From positions 1 to 64,000 of the forward strand of contig NZ_BJVC01000004.1 of NCBI RefSeq assembly GCF_007988945.1: a stretch of 64,000 nucleotides of DNA. The letters run 5' to 3'. The stretch is from Swaminathania salitolerans (GTDB taxonomy: Bacteria > Pseudomonadota > Alphaproteobacteria > Acetobacterales > Acetobacteraceae). The notes beneath the pieces were generated by a model. The model saw nothing but the letters and a program-made list of their open reading frames with translations, was not told the origin of the DNA and did not search any database. Both the position numbers and the translations under genes were made by a program. Of the stretch, positions 48,803 through 63,700 are shown piece after piece. Position 1 is the stretch's first letter, and each line of letters starts with the position of its first letter.

Positions 48803-50500
48803 ATGCGCTTCTCGCGACATCTCGTCACGCTCACGGTACTCTCGCTTTTCGGCGCCCTGCCTCAGGGGCGAACCACAGCCCTCGCAGCCGTTGCGCCGCC
48901 CGGGCGGACGGACGGGCAATTACCGGGCCCGACGTGTGATAAAGAGATCGAGATCGACACGCGCGCCGCCGGGTCGCCCTTCGTTCACAGCTGGGAGAAA
49001 AGCTTCGGATCGGATCGCGCGGATATGGTCCTGACGGAAGGCTATCTCAGGAATGCCGACCGCGCGCGTGCAGCCACGGGTTTCGGTTATGTGCGGTTCC
49101 ACGGGATTTTCGATGACAGCATGGGAATCGTGATACCGGACGGAACCGGTGGCGTGCGCTATAATTTCCGCAAGATCGATGCCGTCTATGACAGTCTCCT
49201 GCGCCATCATCTCCGGCCTTATGTCGAGCTTTCCTTCATGCCCAGCCTGCTCGGCAGCAATCCGCTTCGTCGCAATGGCGGTCTGGAACCGCTCACGAAA
49301 ACCGGCGAGAACGAACCCGCAAGACCGGTCACCGATTTCAGCAAGGGAACGCTCTGGTATCGGGCCAATGTGACGCCCCCGGCACGCATGGCGGAATGGA
49401 ACGCCCTCATCCATGCCTTCGTCACCCATCTCGAGACACGATACGGTCGGGAGGAAATCCGGCGCTGGCCGTTCGAGGTCTGGAACGAGCCGGATCAGGC
49501 GACATGGACGGGCACGCCGCGCATGGCCAGCTATTTCGCCCTGTATGACAATACGGCACGCACCATCAAGAGCGTCGATCCGGCCCTGAAGGTCGGCGGC
49601 CCCGCAACCGGGGCAATACACTGGGTCAGGGAATTCACCGACCATGTGGCCCGGGCGCATGTTCCCGCAGATTTCGTCTCGACCCATATCTATGCGAACG
49701 ATCCGCCCGCTCTGCTTCGCCTCCCTTCCTCGCCCCGGAATACAGGCAATACCGTCTGCGATGCGACGCGCCACGCCCGGGAGATCGTCGATCGTTCCGC
49801 CCGCCCCGGCCTGCCGCTCTATATCTCCGAATTCGGTGCCGACTGGGACATTCACAACGGCAGCGCGGATCGTCCCTGGATCGCTCCCTGGCTGGCCGAG
49901 ACGATCCGGGACTGCGACGGTCTCGCTCCCCTCATGTCCTACTGGACGTTTTCCGATGATTTCGAGGAGCAGGGCATCATGGAAAACGAGCTGCCCGGGG
50001 CCTATGGCCTGCTGAGCACGCATGGCATCCCCAAACCCGCTTTCAACGCTTTCGCCCTGCTTCACCGTCTGGGCACGCAGCGCCTGAAGACCCCCTCGAA
50101 TGCCGATATTCTCGCAACGCGACGCAGGTCGGGCACACTCGCCCTGGCCTTGTGGAACCGTGACAACGCGCGAGAAAAGACGGTCGCCCTCAGGCTCGAG
50201 GGCGTGTCGGACACCACGCAGGCACGGATCGTGATTCTGGATCGCGATCATGGAACGGCCACTGCACGCTTCGACGCCATGGGGCGCCCCGACACCCCGA
50301 CAGAGGCTCAGGCCCGAGCCCTGAGATCGGCAGCCCGTCTGCCGTCACCCCGGACCGCCCCCGAATGCAGGGCGGCGGATCGCTGCGTCGTGACCCTGCC
50401 ACCGGAGAGCCTCGCCCTGCTTGAGATTCCCGCGCAGGGTTCTCGCCGGAACGTGTCCTCGCCTGACGCGACCGATCACTCCCGGGCCGATCACTCATAG
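48803..50500 (+). CDS. Secreted GH39-like glycosidase
   Basis: The product (565 residues) is a clan-A TIM-barrel glycosidase resembling family 39 (beta-xylosidase, alpha-iduronidase). A signal peptide covers about 28 residues (FSRHLVTLTVLSLFGAL). The acid/base Glu is in WPFEVWNEPDQATW (about 235) and the nucleophile Glu in LPLYISEFGADWD (about 343). GFGYVRFHGIFDD is a typical barrel-entry strand. A C-terminal beta-sandwich follows. The substrate is open: xylooligosaccharide, iduronide or an own exopolysaccharide. It follows pgm and its last 10 bp overlap the end of the opposing receptor gene. Confidence 0.85.
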   Translation: MRFSRHLVTLTVLSLFGALPQGRTTALAAVAPPGRTDGQLPGPTCDKEIEIDTRAAGSPFVHSWEKSFGSDRADMVLTEGYLRNADRARAATGFGYVRFHGIFDDSMGIVIPDGTGGVRYNFRKIDAVYDSLLRHHLRPYVELSFMPSLLGSNPLRRNGGLEPLTKTGENEPARPVTDFSKGTLWYRANVTPPARMAEWNALIHAFVTHLETRYGREEIRRWPFEVWNEPDQATWTGTPRMASYFALYDNTARTIKSVDPALKVGGPATGAIHWVREFTDHVARAHVPADFVSTHIYANDPPALLRLPSSPRNTGNTVCDATRHAREIVDRSARPGLPLYISEFGADWDIHNGSADRPWIAPWLAETIRDCDGLAPLMSYWTFSDDFEEQGIMENELPGAYGLLSTHGIPKPAFNAFALLHRLGTQRLKTPSNADILATRRRSGTLALALWNRDNAREKTVALRLEGVSDTTQARIVILDRDHGTATARFDAMGRPDTPTEAQARALRSAARLPSPRTAPECRAADRCVVTLPPESLALLEIPAQGSRRNVSSPDATDHSRADHS

Positions 50501-52794
50501 GTTGCGGACAGACCGACGATCGCCGCGAAACCGGAGCCGATCTCATAGGTCGGCTGCGACCCGGCAAGCCGACTGCCGAACACGCCGCGCTGGGGTCTGG
50601 CCGCCGCCGTGTAGCCGTAAACAGACGAGAGATAATGCTGATCGGTCACGTTGATCAGGTTCAGCTGGAGAGAGGGCGCAACACGCCCGATCTTCGGCAG
50701 CCTCCGTCCGAGAGAGAGATCGGCCGTCATATAGGCGGGAATACCCTGATCGTTCATGAGCGTGGCGTATTGCGCATCGGAATAGCGGAAATTGAACGTT
50801 CCGAAATTGGCTCCGTCATCGTAACTCAGCCCGAAATTCGCTAGGAATCTGGGCGCGCCGGGCTCCTGCTTGCCTTTGGTCGGCAGATAGTCACCCTGAT
50901 AGGCAATGTTGTTGCCGATCCTGCTTTTCATGAACTGGCCGGACGCATGCAGACTGAGCCCATGCCAGGGGCGCGTCCCCAGCTCGAGCTGCACACCGTC
51001 CGCCGACTGCCCGCCCGCATCGATCGCCTGTGAAATCAGGTTCGTCGTTCCGGGAACGTAGCTCGTACTCGTGATCTGGTGATGGGTCATGTTGTAGTGG
51101 AAATAGGCGAGATTGGCGATCAGGGCGCCGGAATAGCGATAGCCGATTTCCTCCCCGATCATGTATTCCGGCTCGTATGGGTCGAGCGGCCGGGATTGCG
51201 GCCTGCCCGTGAACACGGAATAGGTCGAGACCTGCGAGGACAGGGTATTGGGCATGCGATACCCTGTGGTCCCGTTGACATAGATCTGATGCGCGTCGGC
51301 GAAACGGTAGCTGAGCAGGATCTGGGGCACCGGGACGAAGACATTGCGCACGGATTTGTAGGGATCGGCTCCGGGCAGGTCCATCGTGTATTGTCGGCTG
51401 ACCATGGCCGTTTTCAGCCCTGCATCCACGGTCAGCTTCCCGCCGAGAAGACTGATCCGGTCGTTGAGCGCGATGGCGTTGAGCTGTTGCATCGCATTCT
51501 GCGCGTCTTCGGTCAGGCGCCTTCCGCCGAAAACCGTCAGATATCCCGAAGACCGCGTCCATTGGCCCTGGGCGCTGAGCGGATAATAATAACGCTCCAC
51601 CGCCTGGTTCGCATAGGAATACCAGTAGGAAACGCTGAGCGTATTGAAGGATTTCTGCCAGCGACCGACAAGGCTGAGACCCGATGAGATCGTGAACCAG
51701 GGATTGTTCACCACGGCCTGGATCCTCCGGGAGGAGGGCGGATAACCGTCGAGATGATCGTAGCGCTGCGTGCCCAGATACCCGTTCGATACGGGAACCG
51801 GCGTACCCCAGCTGTAAGGTCCGTTGAACCGGACCGAATAGGCGGTGGCGTCGAGCGAGAGACCATGAGCGAAGGCGAAATGGTTCTTGAGTGCACCGAA
51901 GACGGTGCCGGTATTGGATTTGTAGATCTGGTAATAGCCCGGCGACGTCGGATCGGTATTGGCCGTGTATCCTATGCCGTATTGCTGCCACTGCGCCTGG
52001 GTCGGATAGAGCCAGGATGTCTGGTCGGCCTTGGTGTAGCCGAAGACCAGCTCGGACTCGCTCTTGTGGCCCCATTGACGCGTCAGGGCAGCATCCATAT
52101 GCCACCGGCTCACCGATCCGGGGCCACGCCAGAGATTGCCGCTGGAATACGAACCCGAGACGAAGCCGTAAACCTTGCTGTGTCCGATCTCTCCGGTATC
52201 GAAACGGACGAATTCCTTGTTCACGCTGCGCGTTCCGCCCGAGGCCTGACCAAAAAGCACCGGATGGGTCGCGGGCCGACGCAGGCTCATGCTGATCTGG
52301 GCTCCGACAGCATTATAGACCGGCGCATTCATATCGGACGATCCCTGCATGACCGAAATGGCCCCCATGTTCTCGGGATCGACCATGGACGTCGTATAGA
52401 CGCTGTAGGTAAACGGATTGGCGGCAGGAATCCCCTCATAGATCACTCCGATCTCCGTCCGGTCCAGTCCGCGGATATGGAAGGATTCGAACGATGTCGT
52501 CAGAGGGCCCTGGCTCGAGGCGACGACGCCGGGCAGGTTGGCAATCAGCCCGGCAGGGGTAGACATGGGCGATTGCTTCGAGATGAAGTCCGAGGTCAGG
52601 GTGCTGACGGTCTTGGGCACGGTATGCACGACCATCATCCCTCCACCGGCCTGATGATGGCGTGCCGTGACCCGTACATGCTCGACCGGAGCCTTGTCGG
52701 CCGGACGCAGTGCCGGGGGAGGTTCGGAACCACGAGCGAGTGCAGAAGAAAGATACCCGAAAGCGAGTATCGTCGAAGAAAGAAAATATCTCAT
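50491..52794 (-). CDS. TonB-dependent outer-membrane receptor
   Basis: The 767-residue receptor has a signal peptide (~20 residues), a plug domain (PAGLIANLPGVVASSQG, FHIRGLDRTEIGVIYEGIPA) and a 22-strand barrel ending with LQLNLINVTDQHYLSS and a short terminal strand. No TonB box was identified with confidence (VEHVRVTA is a candidate). The ligand is unknown; the gene opposes a glycosidase. The last codons give TYE, so the terminal aromatic is not the final residue. Likely partner: the TonB cluster at 37-41 kb. Confidence 0.92.
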   Translation of the reverse strand: MRYFLSSTILAFGYLSSALARGSEPPPALRPADKAPVEHVRVTARHHQAGGGMMVVHTVPKTVSTLTSDFISKQSPMSTPAGLIANLPGVVASSQGPLTTSFESFHIRGLDRTEIGVIYEGIPAANPFTYSVYTTSMVDPENMGAISVMQGSSDMNAPVYNAVGAQISMSLRRPATHPVLFGQASGGTRSVNKEFVRFDTGEIGHSKVYGFVSGSYSSGNLWRGPGSVSRWHMDAALTRQWGHKSESELVFGYTKADQTSWLYPTQAQWQQYGIGYTANTDPTSPGYYQIYKSNTGTVFGALKNHFAFAHGLSLDATAYSVRFNGPYSWGTPVPVSNGYLGTQRYDHLDGYPPSSRRIQAVVNNPWFTISSGLSLVGRWQKSFNTLSVSYWYSYANQAVERYYYPLSAQGQWTRSSGYLTVFGGRRLTEDAQNAMQQLNAIALNDRISLLGGKLTVDAGLKTAMVSRQYTMDLPGADPYKSVRNVFVPVPQILLSYRFADAHQIYVNGTTGYRMPNTLSSQVSTYSVFTGRPQSRPLDPYEPEYMIGEEIGYRYSGALIANLAYFHYNMTHHQITSTSYVPGTTNLISQAIDAGGQSADGVQLELGTRPWHGLSLHASGQFMKSRIGNNIAYQGDYLPTKGKQEPGAPRFLANFGLSYDDGANFGTFNFRYSDAQYATLMNDQGIPAYMTADLSLGRRLPKIGRVAPSLQLNLINVTDQHYLSSVYGYTAAARPQRGVFGSRLAGSQPTYEIGSGFAAIVGLSATYE

Positions 52795-52887
52795 CGCAGA
52801 ATCCGGCTGAACAGGAAAAACCCGGATTAGGCAGAAATATGCATTCCTTCTACCGATTCAGATAAATTTCATATCGGTGACAGTATA

Positions 52888-52912
52888 ATATTCACGAACG
52901 ACACATGAATAT
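52888..52912. promoter_or_regulatory. Inverted repeat before the TonB receptor gene
   Basis: ATATTCA (52888-52894) and TGAATAT (52906-52912) face each other over 11 bp, near a TATAAT-like element. It may be an operator of the receptor gene or the end hairpin of the b561 gene. Confidence 0.3.
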
Positions 52913-53505
52913 CATTTCGGTGTTTTTTTCTTTCCAACATCCCCTGCGAACATCATGCGCCGCATGACCCCGTCGCGTCGCACCAGACCGTGCCAGAGCG
53001 CCGCTCCCGCATGGAGTACGATCAGCGCGGCAAACATCCATCCGGACCAGCGATGCACGACCCCGAGCACGGGCTCGAACCGGATTGCGCCGGAGAGCGG
53101 CAGGAGCGGCCAGTCGAACAGGCCGAAAACGCCGATCGGCATGTCGGGATCGTCGATCGAGGCCAGAGCCCAGCCGGTCAGGGGGGACAGGATCTGGCAG
53201 ACATAAAGTCCGCCATGAGTCCCCGATGCGAGCCGTGGGAGAAGCGACGGCACAGGCCCGGCATGGAAACAGGAGGACGGCAGGGCGGGAGGTCGATGGG
53301 TCAGGCGCCATGCGATGCGACATGCGACCAGAGCCAGAATCGTCACGCCCAGCGCCCTGTGGGTCAGGAAAACGGAAAACGACAGCTCGCCCGGAAGAGC
53401 GAGATGAACCATGGCGAGGCCGATGACGATCTGGGTCCCCACCAGGGCGGCGATGGCCCAGTGCAAGCCGATCGCCACAGCGGAATACCGCGCCATCGCG
53501 CTCAC
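52912..53505 (-). CDS. Cytochrome b561-type membrane cytochrome
   Basis: CybB-type cytochromes move electrons between quinol, superoxide or partners across the inner membrane. The 197 residues form about four membrane spans with likely haem His ligands in AIGLHWAIAAL, FLTHRALGVT, VVHRWSGWM and IVLHAGAALWHGL. It starts 15 bp after the pseudoazurin stop and is the last gene of katG-pseudoazurin-b561. The context suggests delivery of quinol electrons to the periplasmic copper protein; this is inference. Confidence 0.88.
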   Translation of the reverse strand: MSAMARYSAVAIGLHWAIAALVGTQIVIGLAMVHLALPGELSFSVFLTHRALGVTILALVACRIAWRLTHRPPALPSSCFHAGPVPSLLPRLASGTHGGLYVCQILSPLTGWALASIDDPDMPIGVFGLFDWPLLPLSGAIRFEPVLGVVHRWSGWMFAALIVLHAGAALWHGLVRRDGVMRRMMFAGDVGKKKTPK

Positions 53506-53520
53506 GGGACCCGTTCCGGC

Positions 53521-53985
53521 TCAGTGATGATCGACATCGTCGAAGAGCTTCGCAAAGCGCGCCTTGGCCGCACCGGGCTGGGAGACTGCCTTGAGCTTCG
53601 CCTCGTTATCGGCATTGTCCACCTCGACAAGCCCGACCATGCCCAGGAAATAATGGGGCAGGCATTTGTAGCCATACAGGCCGGGCTTCGTGAAAGTCAC
53701 GTTCAGATCATGTCCGATCCGGCCGGAAAAACCCTGCGCGCCCTCCGGGATCATGCCCGGGATCGACTGGACGTTGTGCCCCGGATCGGCGGCGATGAAA
53801 TGGACGGTATCGCCGGAATGGATATGGACGACGGCCGGGTCGAAACCGCGTCCGCCTTCTTTCGTGTGGCTGAGCATACGGACGTCCACCGTGGCGGCGT
53901 TGGCCGGAGATGCGGCCCCTGCAGCGACGAGAGACGCAAGAAAAAGGGAAGCGGAAAGCGCATGACGCATGATCGTGTGTCTCAT
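53521..53985 (-). CDS. Pseudoazurin-type blue copper protein
   Basis: This is a small periplasmic electron carrier. A signal peptide (to ANA near residue 31) precedes a cupredoxin fold with the four copper ligands visible: His in DPGHNVQSIPG, Cys in YGYKCLPHYFLGM, then His and Met in the same segment. Length is 154, or 149 if the second ATG is used. A C-terminal extension of ~30 residues (ADNEAKLKAVSQPGAAKARF) is typical of pseudoazurin. It lies between katG (56 bp) and the b561 gene (15 bp). Confidence 0.93.
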   Translation of the reverse strand: MRHTIMRHALSASLFLASLVAAGAASPANAATVDVRMLSHTKEGGRGFDPAVVHIHSGDTVHFIAADPGHNVQSIPGMIPEGAQGFSGRIGHDLNVTFTKPGLYGYKCLPHYFLGMVGLVEVDNADNEAKLKAVSQPGAAKARFAKLFDDVDHH

Positions 53986-54041
53986 GATGGGAGGCCCGCC
54001 TGCGTCCGGAAGAGGCAGGCGGGCCGGGTTTCGGGAGAGGA

Positions 54042-56297
54042 TCAGTCGCGACGCAGGTCGAAACGATCGAGGGTCATGACCTTCGTCCAGGCCTTGGCGA
54101 AATCGTTGACGAACTTCTTCTGCCCGTCATCGGAGGCATAGACCTCGGCAACGGCGCGGAGTTCGGCATTCGCTCCGAAGATCAGATCGACCGAGGAGGC
54201 GCTCCAGCGCTTCTTGTCGGACTCGCGGTCGAAACCTTCATAGACCCCGGGCCGGGCAGAGGATTTCTGCCAGCGTGTCGACATGTCGAGCAGGTTGACG
54301 AAGAAGGCGTTGTCCAGCGTTCCCGGATGGGTCGTGAGCACGCCTTGCTGCGAGTGACCGCTATTCACGTCGAGAACACGCAGCCCACCGAGAAGCACCG
54401 TCATCTCAGGCACCGTCAGCTCGAGATTGCTCGCCCGATCGACAAGCATCTGGGTCGGCGATTTCTCGTCGGGCACCGAGCGGTAATAATTGCGGAAGGC
54501 ATCCGCATCGAGCTCGAGCAGAGAGAAGGAAGCCTTGTCGGTCTGCGCGGCTGTGGCATCGACACGACCGGGCGCGAAAGGCAGGTCGAGTGTGACACCG
54601 GCCTTTCTGGCCGCCTGCTCGACCCCGACATTGCCGGCAAGCACGATGACATCGGCGAGCGAAACCTTCCGCCCCTGATGATCGCCCGCGTTGAAGCGCT
54701 TCTGGATCGCCTCGAGACGCGGCAGGACCTTGCGCAGTTCGGACGGATCGTTCACCGCCCAGTTGCTCTCAGGGGCAAGGCGGATCCGCGCCCCGTTGGC
54801 GCCGCCACGATGGTCGGATGTGCGGAAAGACGCAGCCGACGCCCAGGCCGTCTTGATCATCTCGCGTCCGGACAGCCCCGAACCGGCGATCATGTGCTTG
54901 AGGGTCTCGATATCCGCCTTGTTGACGGCAGCCCCCTGGGCGGCAGGCAGGGGATCCTGCCAGAGGAAATCGGCGGCCGGAACCTCGGATCCGAAATAGC
55001 GCGACTTCGGTCCCATGTCGCGATGGGTGAGCTTGAACCAGGCCCGGGCGAAGGCATCGGCGAACTGCTCGGGATGCTGCGCCCAGCGTGCGATGATGGC
55101 GTGATAGGCCGGATCGGTCTTCAGCGCGATATCGGTGGTGAACATCATCAGCGGATGCAGCTTGTTCGGGTCGCTCGCATCGGGAACGATGTTTTCGGCA
55201 TCCTTCGGCTTCCACTGCACCGCGCCGGCCGGGCTCCTGGTCTTTACCCAGTCATGCCCGAGAAGATTGTCGAGATATTGCGAGGTGAAGTGGATCGGAT
55301 CGGCCGACCAGGCGCCCTCCAGACCGCTCGTGATGGCATCCGTGGCCTTGAGCTTTCCCTTGACGCAATGATTCGCCCAGCCAAGCCCCTGCTGCTCGAC
55401 CGGTGCACCGGCGGGTGCGGCACCGACGCATTTATCGGCGGGCGCGGCGCCATGCGACTTGCCGAAGGTATGGCCGCCTGCGATGAGTGCGACGGTTTCC
55501 TCGTCGTCCATCGCCATGCGTCCGAAGGCAAGCCGGATCATCTTGGCGGATTCGGCCGGATCAGGCACACCGTTCGGCCCTTCCGGATTGACGTAGATGA
55601 GCCCCTTGGTGGTCGAGGCGAGCGGCTTCTGCAGATGTCCGGCCGCATTGACGCGCGACGATTTTACCTGCGCATCGACGTTCGAGGTCATGAACCTGGT
55701 GCCCGGGCCCCAGTAGATGAGCTCCGATTCCCAGTCATCCGGACGACCTCCGGCAAAGCCGATCGTCTTGAATCCCATGGATTCGAGCGAGACGTTTCCG
55801 GTCAGGACCATCAGGTCGCCCCAGGAGAGGTTGCGACCATATTTCTTCTTGATCGGCCAGAGCAGACGACGCGCCTTGTCGAGACTTGCATTGTCAGGCC
55901 AGCTGTTGAGCTGCTCGAAACGCTGCTCGGCACCCTCTTCGCCGCCGCGGCCATCCATCGCACGATAGGTTCCGGCAGCGTGCCATGCCATACGGACGAA
56001 GAAAGGCGCATAGGTGCCGTAATCGGCAGGCCACCAGGGCTGGGACTGCGTCAGGATCTTGCGTATGTCGGCCTTGACGGCCTCGAGATCGAGCTTCTGG
56101 AAATCGCGCGTGTAATCGAAATCCGCGCCGTAAGGGTTGGATTCACTGTCATGCATCCGCAGCGGGGCAAGACTCAGGCGGGTCGGCCAGAAGAAATCGT
56201 TGGGTTTTTCGATACCATCGGCACGGGCGGCGTGCGGCGTGGCCGTAAGGGTCGTGGTCGCAATCAGTGCGGCCATACCGAATTTCAGAATTTTCAT
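54042..56297 (-). CDS. katG: Exported catalase-peroxidase KatG
   Basis: KatG removes hydrogen peroxide by catalase and peroxidase activity. The start is the ATG of [17 protein letters not shown], behind GGAGTCCGGAA; the N-terminus is a clear Sec signal peptide (cleaved near ARADG, residue ~27), so this version is periplasmic. The distal site [11 protein letters not shown] (Arg, Trp, His), the Tyr of [11 protein letters not shown] and the proximal His of [11 protein letters not shown] are all intact, as is the second, non-haem domain. Length is 751. Periplasmic KatG (KatP-like) is less common than cytosolic KatG. It heads an operon with pseudoazurin and b561. Confidence 0.95.
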
Positions 56298-56366
56298 TTC
56301 CGGACTCCACAACAGGAAGCAGCGACCTCGAAACTCTATTGGCCACTACTGTTGCCCTCCTCCTAG

Positions 56367-58029: not shown

Positions 58030-58716
58030 TCAGGCGAGAGCCTCGTGCAATCTGTCATGCCGGTTGCTGCGCGCGCGATTGCGCAGGGCTCTCTCGAGAT
58101 GGACCAGATGATCGCGGGTGATGCGAAGCGCGGCGTCCCGATCGCCTCGATCCATCGCCTCGATGAGAGCCGCATGATCGTGACAGGATTGCTGGGCGTC
58201 CTCATCGGACTGGTAGAGGGCCGCGATCAGGACCGTGCGCGCCGTCAGGTTCTCCAGAATCGTCGCGATGACCGAGTTGCCGAGCACGTCGGCGATATGA
58301 ACGTGAAAATGGCCGAGCAGATAGGATCGCCTGGCGAGATCCTGCCCCGCGAGAGCATTTTCCTGTGCCACGAGATGTCGGCGCAACCGGAGGATCGCCG
58401 TCCGGTCGACCCGCTCATGATCCATGATCAGCCCCGTCTCGACGGCGCGCCTCGCCTCGATCACCTCGCGCGCTTCCGGCACGCTCGGCTCGATGACGAA
58501 CCAGCCGCGTCTCGGCGTTACATCCACGAGGCCCTTGCTGCTCAGTCGGATCATGGCCTCACGGACCAGCGTGCGCGAGACGCCGAAAATCTCGCAGAGT
58601 TCCTTCTCGCCGAAACGTTCACCGGGCGAGATCCGGCCCGAGAGCACCGCGCGGATGATCTTCTCCTCGATGACGAGGCCGCTCGCGCGCTCCGGTTCTG
58701 GTCTGGTGATGTCCAT
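58030..58716 (-). CDS. GntR-family regulator with FCD ligand domain
   Basis: FadR-subfamily repressors sense organic acids and control their uptake or breakdown. The N-terminal winged helix is VIEEKIIRAVLSGRISPGER, FGEKELCEIFGVSRTLVREA, MIRLSSKGLVDVTPRRGWFV. The C-terminal FCD domain (about 90-215) shows the helical bundle with metal-ligand-type His (FHVHIADVLGNSVI, DHAALIEAMDRGD). It is divergent from the TonB receptor gene of the adjoining unit and probably controls it. Confidence 0.92.
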   Translation of the reverse strand: MDITRPEPERASGLVIEEKIIRAVLSGRISPGERFGEKELCEIFGVSRTLVREAMIRLSSKGLVDVTPRRGWFVIEPSVPEAREVIEARRAVETGLIMDHERVDRTAILRLRRHLVAQENALAGQDLARRSYLLGHFHVHIADVLGNSVIATILENLTARTVLIAALYQSDEDAQQSCHDHAALIEAMDRGDRDAALRITRDHLVHLERALRNRARSNRHDRLHEALA

Positions 58717-58795
58717 GACGTTTTTATGCGCCTCCCCGGGAGGCGCTGCAAGACGAAGGATCCTGCCCGCCTCGCATCGCGACCCTGTAATTTAT

Positions 58796-58818
58796 TAACG
58801 AAACGGTTCATTTCGTTA
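58796..58818. promoter_or_regulatory. 8-bp inverted repeat in the GntR/receptor gap
   Basis: TAACGAAA (58796-58803) and TTTCGTTA (58811-58818) are exact inverted copies over 7 bp, about 80 bp before the GntR start. Candidate operator or promoter element. Confidence 0.4.
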
Positions 58819-58845
58819 TGGCATGGAAACAGCAGGTATTCTAAG

Positions 58846-58855
58846 TAGTATACAA
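58846..58855. promoter_or_regulatory. FadR-subfamily-like operator
   Basis: TAGTATACAA (reverse TTGTATACTA) fits the short TNGT-N-ACNA type palindromes bound by FCD GntR regulators. It lies 54 bp before the TonB receptor start. Confidence 0.45.
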
Positions 58856-58908
58856 GATCGTCCATCAGGAGCCGCCCCACGGCCTCCTGCCTATGCCGGG
58901 AACCTCCG

Positions 58909-61275
58909 ATGTCGCGTCAGCCGAAACGCTTTTTCCTGAATTCCTGCAGCCGCCCCACCCTCCTGGCCTCGATGACGCTTGGCATTACCGTCGTGCTCTC
59001 GCTCGCCGGGTCCGGCGGCGGGGCTCATGCCCAGGGCACGACAACGGGCATGCACCACCCGACCCCTCATCGTCAGACCGTACGCCCGCGTCATGTTTCC
59101 TCCGGCGCGCACAAGCCGATACCGGCCGGGGGTGAGACCGTTCAGGTCTCGGCGAGACGGGGCGTGACCAGCGCCGGCCAGCACAACGCACATTCCGAGA
59201 CCGTTCTCTCTCGCCAGGAGTTGCAGAACCGGAACGTTCGGCAGATGACCGATATCGTCCGTGTCGCTCCCAATCTCACGATTCAGCCGAGCTTCGGCAG
59301 TGCGGCGCTCAATTTCGCGCTCCGCGGCGTCGGGCTGATGGATTTCACCCAGAACAACACGCCCTCGGTCATGCCCTATGTCGACGGGGTCGCCTATCCG
59401 GTCAGCATCATGACGACGGGCATATTGTTCGACATGGACGATGTCTCGGTCGCACCGGGTGCCTCTGGCTTTACGCACGGTCAGTCGACGACGGGCGGAG
59501 AAATCAATTTCCATACCGGAGACCCGACGGAACGTTTCCATACCGGACTGACCGAGGATATCGCCAGTTACGGCCGCAACCGGGTCGAGGGCTTCGTATC
59601 GGGGCCGCTCTCGCGCAGCGTTTCCTATCGCATTGCGGGGCAATCCCTCACCGGTGGCGGATTCCAGCACAATGCGCAGGGAACCGGCTATGGCAACAGC
59701 AATATCGGCGCGCTGCGCGGCAAGCTGCGCTGGCAGATCGACGAGACCTCTCGCCTCGATATCGGCGGTCACTGGACCACCGATCAGTCCGAATCGTCAT
59801 CCGGGCATAATCTGTACAACTCCTACGGCGTGCCCGTCACCGGCGATATCTACCAGACAGCCTGGGGGCTCGATCCGCGTTTCGCGAAGATCATCGGAAT
59901 CGATCCCGGCAATGCCAAACCGCGCGAGGACAATCTCTTCTGGGGCGCGAATATCCGTTATACCAAGACGTTCTCCTGGGCGCGCCTGTGGTCGCAGAGC
60001 GCCTATGAGATGGTCGACGAGCACGAGCTGACCAATCAGACCAACTCGGTCAGATCCTTCGGCAACATGTTCCGCAACAACCAGACCAATGTCTTTTCGC
60101 AGGAAGTGAAGCTGGAATCGCGCGATCCCAAAGCGCGCTTTCACTGGGAGACCGGTCTTTATTACAGTCGCGCGCGCATGGCCCAGAGCTTCTGGTACGA
60201 CAGTTCGGATCGCCCCGGCACCACGCCCCTGAACGAGACCAGCTACCGGCAGAACCAGCAGAATTTCAACCAGTACGTTCAGCTCAGCTACCGCATCCTG
60301 CCGAAACTGACCCTGATCGGCGCGATCAATCATGAATCAGACGACCGGCAGATGCTCAATCTGACGAGCACCAATGTCAATCTCGATACAGGGCTTGCCT
60401 ACGGGCAGACGAATTTCGGCAATTCCGGCGCCCTGACGAACCAGTTCGGCGGCAGGGTCGGTGCGCAGTACCAGTTTACGCCCAATGTCATGGGCTATGC
60501 GATCTTCTCGAAGGGATTCAAGCCCGGAGGCTTCTCGGCCAATATCACGCAGAACGCCAATCAGCTCCGCCCCTTCAAGCCGGAATCGGTCCTGACCTAT
60601 GAAGGCGGGTTCAAATCGATGCTTTTCGATCGCCGCCTGCGTTTCAATGCGGCGGGATTCTATTACGATTATCGCGACCAGCAGATTCTCGGGAGCATCC
60701 TCGTGCCTCCCTACGGCGTTCTCGGCGGTTATGTGAACGCGCCGCGCTCCTACATCTACGGCGCGGAATTCGACATGGAAGCGCATCCCTTCCACGGTCT
60801 CGTCCTGACACAGAATTTCGGTTACCAGAATGGCGTCTTCACCCAGTTCCAGAGCCTGAACAGAAGCGCCACGACGGCGCAATTCGCCAATACGGGCCGA
60901 TGGTCGCCAATCTATACCAACTATAACGGCTACAATATGGGGCTCGCCAATCTGACGCTCTCCGGTGCTGCGGTCTATAGCTGGCACGTTTTTCGCGATT
61001 ACCGCATGACCTTCGACGTCGATTACAATTATCGTGGCGCCCAGACCCAGCCCCAGCATATCGGCGATGGCGGGATCTATCGTGCGCCAGCCTATTTCCT
61101 GGTCAATTCCTTCCTGACCTTTGCCGCGCCAAGACAGCACTGGGCGCTGACGGTCTACGGACAGAATCTCGCCGATCGCCGCTACTGGCTGTCGGGCGGC
61201 ACACAGGCGACCTTCTATGGCGTCATTCCGGGTTTGCCCCGTTTCGTCGGCGCAAAGATCAACGTAACCTACTGA
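58909..61275 (+). CDS. TonB-dependent outer-membrane receptor of the GntR unit
   Basis: The 788 residues have a signal peptide (ASMTLGITVVLSLAGSG, ends AHAQG near 42), a Pro/His-rich linker, a TonB-box-like segment ETVQVSARR (about 77), a plug (LSRQELQNRNVRQMTDIVRV) and a barrel ending in AKINVTY, a good C-terminal signature. It lacks the CYC/haem or CobW-type features I would recognise, so the ligand is open. Its place beside a GntR regulator, a DAACS symporter and a dehydrogenase suggests an organic-acid-type ligand rather than iron. Confidence 0.92.
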   Translation: MSRQPKRFFLNSCSRPTLLASMTLGITVVLSLAGSGGGAHAQGTTTGMHHPTPHRQTVRPRHVSSGAHKPIPAGGETVQVSARRGVTSAGQHNAHSETVLSRQELQNRNVRQMTDIVRVAPNLTIQPSFGSAALNFALRGVGLMDFTQNNTPSVMPYVDGVAYPVSIMTTGILFDMDDVSVAPGASGFTHGQSTTGGEINFHTGDPTERFHTGLTEDIASYGRNRVEGFVSGPLSRSVSYRIAGQSLTGGGFQHNAQGTGYGNSNIGALRGKLRWQIDETSRLDIGGHWTTDQSESSSGHNLYNSYGVPVTGDIYQTAWGLDPRFAKIIGIDPGNAKPREDNLFWGANIRYTKTFSWARLWSQSAYEMVDEHELTNQTNSVRSFGNMFRNNQTNVFSQEVKLESRDPKARFHWETGLYYSRARMAQSFWYDSSDRPGTTPLNETSYRQNQQNFNQYVQLSYRILPKLTLIGAINHESDDRQMLNLTSTNVNLDTGLAYGQTNFGNSGALTNQFGGRVGAQYQFTPNVMGYAIFSKGFKPGGFSANITQNANQLRPFKPESVLTYEGGFKSMLFDRRLRFNAAGFYYDYRDQQILGSILVPPYGVLGGYVNAPRSYIYGAEFDMEAHPFHGLVLTQNFGYQNGVFTQFQSLNRSATTAQFANTGRWSPIYTNYNGYNMGLANLTLSGAAVYSWHVFRDYRMTFDVDYNYRGAQTQPQHIGDGGIYRAPAYFLVNSFLTFAAPRQHWALTVYGQNLADRRYWLSGGTQATFYGVIPGLPRFVGAKINVTY

Positions 61276-61337
61276 CCGCCATCCGAAACGTCGCCCTGCC
61301 AGACACAGCCATTTTCCTGCCGGACCGGAGATCCCTC

Positions 61338-62627
61338 TTGAGCGCACGCGAAACCGCATCGGCCGCCCCGACCAGGCCGGGCATCTTCATCCAGGTCATC
61401 GTGGCAACCCTGGCCGGCATCCTCCTCGGGCTGTTCGCACCGCATCTCTCGCTGTCCTGCCGATGGCTGACCGACCTCTTCCTGCGGCTCATCCTCATGA
61501 TCGTGGGGCCGCTCCTGTTCTGCATCGTCGTGACCGGAATCACAGGAGCAGGCTCGCTCGGCTCCGTCGGGCGGCTCGGGAGCCGTTCCCTGATCTATTT
61601 CGAGGCCATGACCACACTCGTTCTGCTTCTCTCCGTCGGGGCCGCCCTGCTGATCCATCCGGGGCGCGGCATGAACTATACGCCGAGCGCGGAAGATGCC
61701 CGGGCCGTCGCCAGCTATGCGGCAAACGCCCATGCCCTTCACGCCCAGGGTTTCACGGGTTTCATCCTGAATCTCGTCCCCCGGTCGCCGGTCGCGGCGT
61801 TTGCGGAAGGCAATATCCTCCAGATCCTGTTCTTTGCCGTGCTTCTGGGCTGCTGCCTCTCACGTCTCGGCGAGACCGGCGCGCCGGTCACCCGGCTGAT
61901 CGAGAGTCTCTCTACCCTGTTTTCCCGCATGATGCGGGTCATCATCGCGACCGCGCCTCTGGGCGTCTTTGGCGCGGTCGCGACCACCGTCGCCGAATAC
62001 GGGCTCGATGCGATCATTCATCTCGCAAGCTTCGTCGTTCTCTATTTCTCCGCGATCGGTTTTTTCATCGTGGTCATACTGGGCGGTCTGCTGGCCCTGT
62101 GCGGTCTCAATCCCCTGCGCTTCGCCCGCTATTTCCGCGAGGAGATCCTGATCGTCACCGCAACCACGAGTTCCGACTCCGTTCTGCCGAGCATCATGGC
62201 AAAGCTCGAAGCGCTCGGCATGACGCGTCAGGTCGTGGGACTCGTGGTTCCGGCCGGCTACAGCCTCAATCTCGATGCGCTCTCGATCTATCTCGGCTTT
62301 GCCGTCGTGTTTCTGGCAGAGGTCACCCATACCCCCCTGACCGTGACCCAGATCCTGTCCATGCTGGCCACGGCGCTCATCACCTCCAAAGGCGCGCACG
62401 GGGTTCCGGGCATCGCGATCGTGGTGCTTGCCGCCACCCTGGCGGCGGCGCCGTCGATCCCGCTCTCCAGTCTCGTCCTGCTGATTGCGGTGGACTGGTT
62501 CAGCGGCATTGCCCGGGCCGTGGGCAATCTCGCCGGAAACTGCGTGGCACCGGTCGTCATCGCCGCCTGGGAGGGGTCGCTCGACCGGGCACAGGCCCGT
62601 CGGGTAATGGAACAGGCAAACTCCTGA
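61338..62627 (+). CDS. Dicarboxylate/amino acid:cation symporter (DAACS, GltP/DctA-like)
   Basis: This 429-residue inner-membrane symporter imports C4-dicarboxylates, Glu/Asp or similar acids with Na+ or H+. The start is TTG behind GGAG. The re-entrant-loop motif TTSSDSVLPSIMAKLEALG and the C-terminal VPAGYSLNLDALSIYLGF and VDWFSGIARAVGNLAGNCV match the family; the last carries the conserved Asp (VDW) and Asn. It lies 62 bp after the receptor gene and 26 bp before the dehydrogenase gene, probably one transcript. Confidence 0.92.
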   Translation: MSARETASAAPTRPGIFIQVIVATLAGILLGLFAPHLSLSCRWLTDLFLRLILMIVGPLLFCIVVTGITGAGSLGSVGRLGSRSLIYFEAMTTLVLLLSVGAALLIHPGRGMNYTPSAEDARAVASYAANAHALHAQGFTGFILNLVPRSPVAAFAEGNILQILFFAVLLGCCLSRLGETGAPVTRLIESLSTLFSRMMRVIIATAPLGVFGAVATTVAEYGLDAIIHLASFVVLYFSAIGFFIVVILGGLLALCGLNPLRFARYFREEILIVTATTSSDSVLPSIMAKLEALGMTRQVVGLVVPAGYSLNLDALSIYLGFAVVFLAEVTHTPLTVTQILSMLATALITSKGAHGVPGIAIVVLAATLAAAPSIPLSSLVLLIAVDWFSGIARAVGNLAGNCVAPVVIAAWEGSLDRAQARRVMEQANS

Positions 62628-62653
62628 GACACAAGGCCCGATACGCCCCCGCC

Positions 62654-63700
62654 ATGACCGATCCGAACCGATACGCCGCCCCGATTCTCGCGCGCGCCTG
62701 CCAGAAGAGACTGGAACAGGCCGGAGCCGCTCCGCAGGATGCTGCCCAGACCGTTCGTGCCCTCCTGCACGGTTCGATGCTCGGCACGGACAGTCACGGC
62801 GTCCGGCTGATCGGCTATTACGCCGACATGCTGGAAAACGGAGGGGTGAACCGCCATCCGGACAGGCATTTCGTCCGGACCGCACCGGCTACCGGACGCT
62901 ACGATGCGGATTTCGGTCTGGCCCATGCGGCGTCCTACGACGCCATGGATCATGCGGTCGCCCTCGCCCGTCAGAGCGGAATCGGTGCCGTCACGGTCCA
63001 TCGCTCCACCCATTACGGGGCAGGAGGCGCCTATGCCCTGCCTGCGGCAGAGCAGGGTTTCGTCGCTCTGGTTCTCAGCAACTCCGATCCGGCCGTGGCC
63101 CTGGCCGGAGGGCGCGGCGCCTTTCACGGCACGAACCCGATCGCGATGGCGGCGCCGGTGCGCGGCCGCAGGCCGTGGCTGCTCGACATGGCGACCTCCT
63201 CGATCCCGTTCAACCGGGTGAAGCTGTTCCGCAGTCTCGGCCTGACTCTCGATCCCGATGTCGCACTCGACGAGGAAGGGCATCCGACCCGGGACGCGCA
63301 TCGTGCCCGGGTTCTCCAGCCACTGGGCGGCACGGCATTCGGACATAAGGGCGCGGCACTGGCAGGCGTGGTGACGATCCTCTCCGCGATCCTGTCGGGC
63401 GCCGATCCCGACCCGGTCATGGCCTCGACCTCGGACGCCCAGACAGGCCGGGCGCGGCAGAATGTCGGCCATATCATGCTGGCCATCGATCCCGCCCGTT
63501 TCATAGGGCAGGAGGCCTTCGAATCCGAAATGGACCGCTATCTCGCGCTTCTGCACGAATCACCCGGAACCGAAGCGGCGCACCCTCCGAGAGCCCCCGG
63601 CGATATCGAATGGGCGCATTTCGACGCACGCAGCGAGCACGGCATTCCGGTGGATCCGGATACGGAGCGGTTTCTCGGGCTTTCCCCCCGGAGCGAATGA
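62654..63700 (+). CDS. Ldh_2-family malate/lactate/ureidoglycolate-type dehydrogenase
   Basis: NAD(P)-dependent 2-hydroxyacid dehydrogenases of the YlbC/AllD fold, distinct from classical LDH/MDH, oxidise malate, lactate, sulfolactate, ureidoglycolate or tartrate-like acids. The start is the ATG of MTDPNRYAAPIL (348 residues); an open frame continues upstream inside the symporter. ALLHGSMLGTDSHGVRLIGYY (catalytic His), TVHRSTHYGAGGAYAL, VLSNSDPAVALAGG, NPIAMAAPV and LLDMATSSIPFNRVKL are family motifs. The acid imported by the adjacent symporter is the likely substrate. Confidence 0.9.
   Translation: MTDPNRYAAPILARACQKRLEQAGAAPQDAAQTVRALLHGSMLGTDSHGVRLIGYYADMLENGGVNRHPDRHFVRTAPATGRYDADFGLAHAASYDAMDHAVALARQSGIGAVTVHRSTHYGAGGAYALPAAEQGFVALVLSNSDPAVALAGGRGAFHGTNPIAMAAPVRGRRPWLLDMATSSIPFNRVKLFRSLGLTLDPDVALDEEGHPTRDAHRARVLQPLGGTAFGHKGAALAGVVTILSAILSGADPDPVMASTSDAQTGRARQNVGHIMLAIDPARFIGQEAFESEMDRYLALLHESPGTEAAHPPRAPGDIEWAHFDARSEHGIPVDPDTERFLGLSPRSE

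Follow-up and report, generated by a model that had tools for sequence, protein, structure and literature searches.

A GntR-linked TonB receptor, symporter and dehydrogenase unit as a candidate ureide uptake arm in acetic acid bacteria

Which compound would a bacterium import through a TonB-dependent receptor (TBDT), an SDF/DAACS symporter (SDF), and an Ldh_2 dehydrogenase (Ldh2) that are encoded in a row beside one regulator gene? We addressed this question for positions 58,030 to 63,700 of contig NZ_BJVC01000004.1 of Swaminathania salitolerans, within the 64,000-nucleotide (nt) stretch analyzed here (positions 1 to 64,000; hereafter the window). This host, a member of the acetic acid bacteria (Acetobacteraceae) near Asaia, has a genome of 2.92 Mb in 9 contigs. 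We consider it rather likely that the unit serves a ureide (purine breakdown) regulon as its uptake and entry arm: TBDT and SDF would bring in allantoate or a closely related ureide, and Ldh2 would oxidize ureidoglycolate. The unit comprises the following features.

58030..58716, minus strand: FCD-type GntR regulator, 228 amino acids, predicted repressor of the unit (Pfam GntR 64.6 bits and FCD 55.0 bits; syntenic orthologues 57-88% identical)
58796..58818, no strand: 8-bp inverted repeat TAACGAAA-N7-TTTCGTTA, probably due to chance (by-eye comparison with Asaia upstream sequences)
58834..58856, plus strand: operator AGGTATTCTAAGTAGTATACAAG, whose 3' portion is a form of the palindrome CTTGTATACAAG (24/24 GntR-bearing loci, 0/4 without GntR)
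58909..61275, plus strand: TBDT, 788 amino acids, predicted ureide (allantoate) receptor (Pfam Plug 36.2 bits and TonB barrel 90 bits; orthologues 70-95% identical)
61338..62627, plus strand: SDF/DAACS symporter, 429 amino acids, TTG start, predicted importer of an anionic ureide (Pfam SDF, PF00375, 316.9 bits against a gathering cut-off of 27.9)
62654..63700, plus strand: Ldh_2 NAD(P)-dependent dehydrogenase, 348 amino acids, predicted ureidoglycolate dehydrogenase (Pfam Ldh_2, PF02615, 308 bits against a gathering cut-off of 38.8, covering positions 6-328 of the 333 in the profile)

With Pfam gathering scores as the threshold, all four open reading frames passed, including both the helix-turn-helix and FCD domains of GntR and both domains of TBDT. 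The GntR and TBDT genes are divergent, with 192 nt between them. Because the gaps between TBDT and SDF and between SDF and Ldh2 are just 62 and 26 nt, these three genes very likely form a single operon. The TTG start of SDF at 61338 is preceded by GGAG, and Ldh2 starts with an ATG at 62654. These findings confirm the arrangement described in an earlier note on this DNA, an FCD GntR gene diverging from a receptor, a DAACS symporter, and an Ldh_2 dehydrogenase. A search for sigma-70 consensus promoters yielded a single match, which is at chance level.

We searched for Ldh2 in 398 genomes of the family and for TBDT in GTDB contigs. The order of GntR divergent from TBDT-SDF-Ldh2 was found in Asaia (eight genomes with the unit, one of them split across contigs), Gluconobacter, Gluconacetobacter, and Acetobacter, and Komagataeibacter retains TBDT-SDF-Ldh2. 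Since the gene order repeats in four genera and its three-gene part in a fifth, the unit is more than a chance arrangement. Every one of the 26 TBDT loci came from acetic acid bacteria, and identities to the window proteins were 64-87% for SDF and 54-76% for Ldh2. Among 385 genomes of the wider Alphaproteobacteria searched at an E value of 1e-90, TBDT matches were limited to the window's genome and one other Acetobacteraceae genome. No GntR gene adjoined the unit in Komagataeibacter and A. orientalis; a LysR gene occupied the place of GntR in loci L077 and L081, and a LysR-like gene lay farther upstream in L083. The conserved gene order and the predicted functions support the proposal of the earlier note that outer-membrane uptake, inner-membrane import, and a first oxidation form one unit.

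The short palindrome that the note had placed in the GntR-TBDT gap, where TAGTATACAA lies at 58846-58855, proved to be real and conserved. Forms within two mismatches of CTTGTATACAAG were present in 24/24 GntR-bearing TBDT upstream regions and in 0/4 intact upstream regions without GntR (L075, L077, L081, and L083). Conservation in homologous loci, named in the note as a point on which its idea could fail, held for both the unit and the palindrome. In L077, L081, and L083, the GntR gene is not beside the unit and the CTTGTATACAAG operator is likewise gone. The 8-bp inverted repeat, also claimed earlier, does exist, but its left arm is not conserved in Asaia as judged by eye, and we rejected TAACGAAA/TTTCGTTA as an operator.

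The operator is rare. In the host genome, exact TNGTATACAAGA occurred only twice, and seven matches were found with at most one mismatch, including the TBDT promoter and the start of the gene for AllC (allantoate amidohydrolase). The TBDT promoter of Asaia, Gluconobacter, and some Acetobacter holds the consensus TTGTATTCTANNTNGTATACAAG. Exact CTTGTATACAWG was found in 13 of the 21 whole genomes counted, always at one place per genome. In six Gluconacetobacter and A. garciniae, this place precedes the genes for AllC and UGAT (ureidoglycine aminotransferase), next to GntR; four Asaia have it at the AllC start, and L069 (Acetobacter sp.) and L079 (G. albidus) have it in the TBDT promoter. Exact CTTGTATACAWG was not found in the four genomes without GntR at the unit, and the reversed pattern of CTTGTATACAWG, used as a control, gave one match across all 21 genomes. 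In the window's genome, an operator site at the AllC start, positions 165893-165904 of contig C4, lies 24 bp ahead of the AllC match, with UGAT following. In the Asaia loci compared, the 12-mer at the AllC site does not vary, in contrast to the codons around it. These findings suggest that the GntR protein governs both the unit and AllC-UGAT through CTTGTATACAAG-type operators, with repression predicted on the assumption that this protein acts as FCD-GntR proteins usually do, as a repressor. Because the AllC-UGAT operon has the same operator as the unit, the substrate is probably a purine-derived ureide (allantoate or ureidoglycolate). Ureidoglycolate, one of the candidates in the earlier note, fits this reading; malate, tartrate, sulfolactate, and amino dicarboxylates, which were listed with it, are probably not substrates.

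The downstream pathway is present in the host and its relatives. AllC scored 519 bits with NF006775 (cut-off of 479) and in the window's genome lies 100 kb from the unit on the same contig. Homologues of AllC and HpxZ were detected in 33/33 and 32/33 genomes tested, respectively. The aminotransferase gene starts 11 nt after AllC; the best PDB matches of its Gluconacetobacter copy were a ureidoglycine-glyoxylate aminotransferase (3nnk, 496 bits) and PucG (3isl, 426 bits), with the next at 309 bits, and the UGAT of the window's genome is 90-92% identical to that of Asaia. Some Gluconacetobacter matches were fragments at contig ends, and two UGAT copies per such genome may break the assemblies. 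In A. garciniae, UGAT, AllC, and GntR follow one another, with TBDT and SDF next on the opposite strand. The genes surrounding the unit of A. orientalis encode an oxalate/formate antiporter, AllC, UGAT, AtzE, and HpxZ (132.3 bits, slightly below the cut-off of 135). A cluster on contig C1 of the window's genome encodes an FAD oxidoreductase, HIUase, OHCU decarboxylase, PuuE, AtzE, and an HpxW-like GGT. Judging from these sequences, the window's genome appears to have a complete gene set from urate to oxalurate, with the urate step possibly performed by the FAD oxidoreductase, a role that its place suggests and that no curated model confirms. UGAT was more widespread than the unit, being found in 73/398 family genomes, and thus the ureide pathway is not dependent on the unit. 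Both the window's genome and Asaia also have another large TBDT beside the urate-to-allantoin cluster (L195:13985-17230, minus strand, and L196:2651-5614, plus strand).

Which ureide would enter? We favor allantoate because AllC is the first enzyme in the regulon. Furthermore, A. garciniae and A. orientalis both carry the receptor and the carrier, yet no PuuE allantoinase was found in either, which suggests entry at allantoate rather than at allantoin. We considered it unlikely that the unit instead imports another ureido compound or cyclic amide, such as allantoin, hydantoin, ureidoglycolate, or oxalurate. This alternative would accommodate the D-hydantoinase gene that precedes SDF-Ldh2 in L050 (Gluconacetobacter) and the arrangement in K. 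melaceti, where the unit contains an ArgE-like M20 hydrolase and is preceded by a carbon-nitrogen hydrolase. For allantoin, the missing PuuE argues against it, and an NCS1 allantoin-type permease is already encoded near the urate cluster, separate from the unit. Allantoin as a substrate via AllB was rejected, since AllB was above its cut-off in 0/18 genomes.

The SDF protein was nearest to DctA models and below both cut-offs (NF009587, 503.8 versus 570 bits; NF002461, 467.2 versus 513 bits). It thus resembles the DctA C4-dicarboxylate symporter in family and nearest curated models and differs from it in missing these cut-offs and in being regulated together with ureide genes. Related SDF proteins bind carboxylates, which makes this carrier plausible for an anionic ureide. 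The nearness to DctA would also suit a C4-dicarboxylate or hydroxy-acid unit, in which a DctA-type SDF would work with a malate- or L-lactate-type Ldh2 and TBDT would import a chelate or conjugate of the acid. Consistent with such a unit, the Ldh_2 family includes malate dehydrogenases, and the best PDB match of Ldh2 was 1z2i, deposited as a malate dehydrogenase (262 bits, compared with 140 for AllD and 88.8 for DpkA). We regard this explanation as improbable because both DctA cut-offs were failed, the operator is common to AllC-UGAT and not to C4 metabolism, and the malate dehydrogenases 1v9n and 1vbi carry Ser-Arg and Ala-Glu at the positions where Ldh2 carries Ser-Asp.

The best NCBIfam model for Ldh2 was ureidoglycolate dehydrogenase (AllD), with a score below the cut-off. 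In comparison with the active site of E. coli AllD (PDB 1xrh and 4fjs), a member of the same fold family, Ldh2 retains six of nine residues (the catalytic Ser43, His44, Tyr52, and His116 and the pair Ser140-Asp141), and Met251 and Arg259 are replaced by Thr and Gln. Ser140, Asp141, and Arg48 are reported to be conserved in AllD-like enzymes (PMC3527362). The Ser-Asp pair was present in the aligned unit-linked Ldh2 proteins and absent from three unlinked homologues (L045, L056, and L057). The retained residues support ureidoglycolate oxidation as the predicted reaction, but the curated model gives Ldh2 no membership in AllD. Other differences from E. coli AllD are the loss of Arg48 along with Met251 and Arg259 and the coupling of Ldh2 to UGAT, TBDT, and an SDF carrier. 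We rejected Ldh2 as a Delta1-piperideine/pyrroline-2-carboxylate reductase, since the match to DpkA was far weaker and a hydroxyproline-like context occurred in one genome (L050). In that genome, SDF-Ldh2 occurs without TBDT behind another GntR gene, a D-hydantoinase gene, and DHDPS- and DAO-family genes resembling hydroxyproline catabolism. The unlinked homologues in L045 and L056 adjoin an ArgE-like M20 hydrolase and a DUF1028 protein, with a sodium:solute-type permease also in L045, surroundings that possibly belong to a pathway for ureido or N-acyl compounds.

Could TBDT be an iron-siderophore receptor that merely adjoins a carboxylate uptake operon? Its best NCBIfam match was indeed the TonB-siderophore subfamily TIGR01783, and its best PDB matches were FyuA and FpvA. 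The subfamily score was 102.8 bits against a cut-off of 223.5, however, and TBDT, the operator, and GntR travel together across four genera. Control of TBDT by Fur was rejected, as the best Fur-like site was no better than those in shuffled sequences. We therefore consider a siderophore receptor highly improbable.

In the mechanism that we propose for ureide entry, TBDT would carry allantoate (or a close ureide) over the outer membrane and the SDF symporter would move the ureide anion over the inner membrane. AllC would then convert allantoate to ureidoglycine, which UGAT would transaminate to oxalurate. Ureidoglycine may also lose ammonia to yield ureidoglycolate, and Ldh2 would oxidize this to oxalurate, the same product as that of UGAT. 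From oxalurate, AtzE/HpxX, HpxW, and HpxZ would lead on toward oxalate and ammonia. Repression of the TBDT and AllC operons by the FCD-GntR protein, acting at CTTGTATACAAG-type operators, is predicted to end when a compound of the pathway releases the protein.

Several observations weigh against this mechanism. Ldh2 fails the AllD equivalog cut-offs (TIGR03175, 177.0 versus 496.2 bits; NF011599, 186.3 versus 356 bits), and the column of Arg48, which is essential in AllD, holds Leu in Ldh2, with an Arg one residue earlier. The unit is also variable: G. albidus (L079) and G. kondonii (L086) have no SDF and carry Ldh2 directly after TBDT, A. garciniae has GntR, TBDT, and SDF with no Ldh2 beside them, and in L050 the SDF-Ldh2 pair lacks TBDT and comes after D-hydantoinase and hydroxyproline-like genes. 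The AllC operon of Gluconobacter and most Acetobacter lacks the operator, which is confined there to the TBDT operon, indicating that the extent of the regulon differs between genera. Finally, allantoate is small enough to pass porins.

The Klebsiella hpx and Bacillus puc systems (UGAT 3nnk, PucG 3isl; HpxZ) are the likeness for the downstream genes, with AllC, UGAT, AtzE, an HpxW-like protein, and HpxZ all present in the host and partly beside the unit. These systems use NCS1 or similar permeases and, to our knowledge, have no dedicated outer-membrane receptor. Plant-carbohydrate uptake in Xanthomonas, cited in PMC5017803, pairs a TonB-dependent receptor with an inner-membrane carrier and an enzyme, and the likeness to such systems is that a receptor, an importer, and a catabolic enzyme occur in one regulated unit. 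Compared with TonB nutrient systems for sugars, siderophores, and cobalamin, the substrate predicted here is a small nitrogen-rich acid. In the open-licence literature, we found no report that allantoin, allantoate, or any other ureide is taken up in a TonB-dependent manner, an absence that is weak evidence, and a Methylobacterium paper treats TonB and ureides separately. All parts of the unit come from known families; that literature yielded no GntR-governed TBDT and SDF with a link to ureide breakdown, which again is weak evidence. We tentatively propose, leaning slightly toward doubt, that acetic acid bacteria possess a TonB-dependent high-affinity allantoate route made of TBDT, SDF, and a new ureidoglycolate dehydrogenase clade, with a dedicated GntR that also governs AllC-UGAT.

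TonB-dependent uptake usually serves siderophores, cobalamin, nickel, and oligosaccharides, whose size or scarcity puts them beyond the reach of porins. If the proposed route is correct, it would be the first case of a purine-derived ureide taken up by a TonB-dependent system, and a receptor for a small nitrogenous acid would imply that outer-membrane active transport also scavenges nitrogen waste. Plants, which move nitrogen in the form of ureides, and insects, which excrete purine waste, are both habitats of acetic acid bacteria. Genes for uric acid degradation have been linked to the life of acetic acid bacteria with flies (PMC8358223). Curated models cannot name the homologues of the SDF carrier, the Ldh_2 clade, or the GntR regulator, and the proposal also gives all three testable names.

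Other receptors were observed in the window, elsewhere in its genome, and in Asaia. A paralogous TBDT, 43% identical, is encoded at L202:7069-13290 (86-92 kb of contig C3 of the window's genome) with a LysR-like gene, an MFS/MHS-like importer, and an M20 amidohydrolase, the neighbors being identified from their translations alone, without a family library; this locus looks like the same layout of receptor, importer, and first enzyme for another substrate. In four Asaia loci (L034, L035, L036, and L039), a TBDT of ~22% identity that is absent from the window lies between GntR and hemC. In the window itself, the minus strand at 50491-56312, upstream of hemC, encodes a TBDT, a cytochrome b561-like protein, a cupredoxin, and a KatG-type peroxidase in a row.

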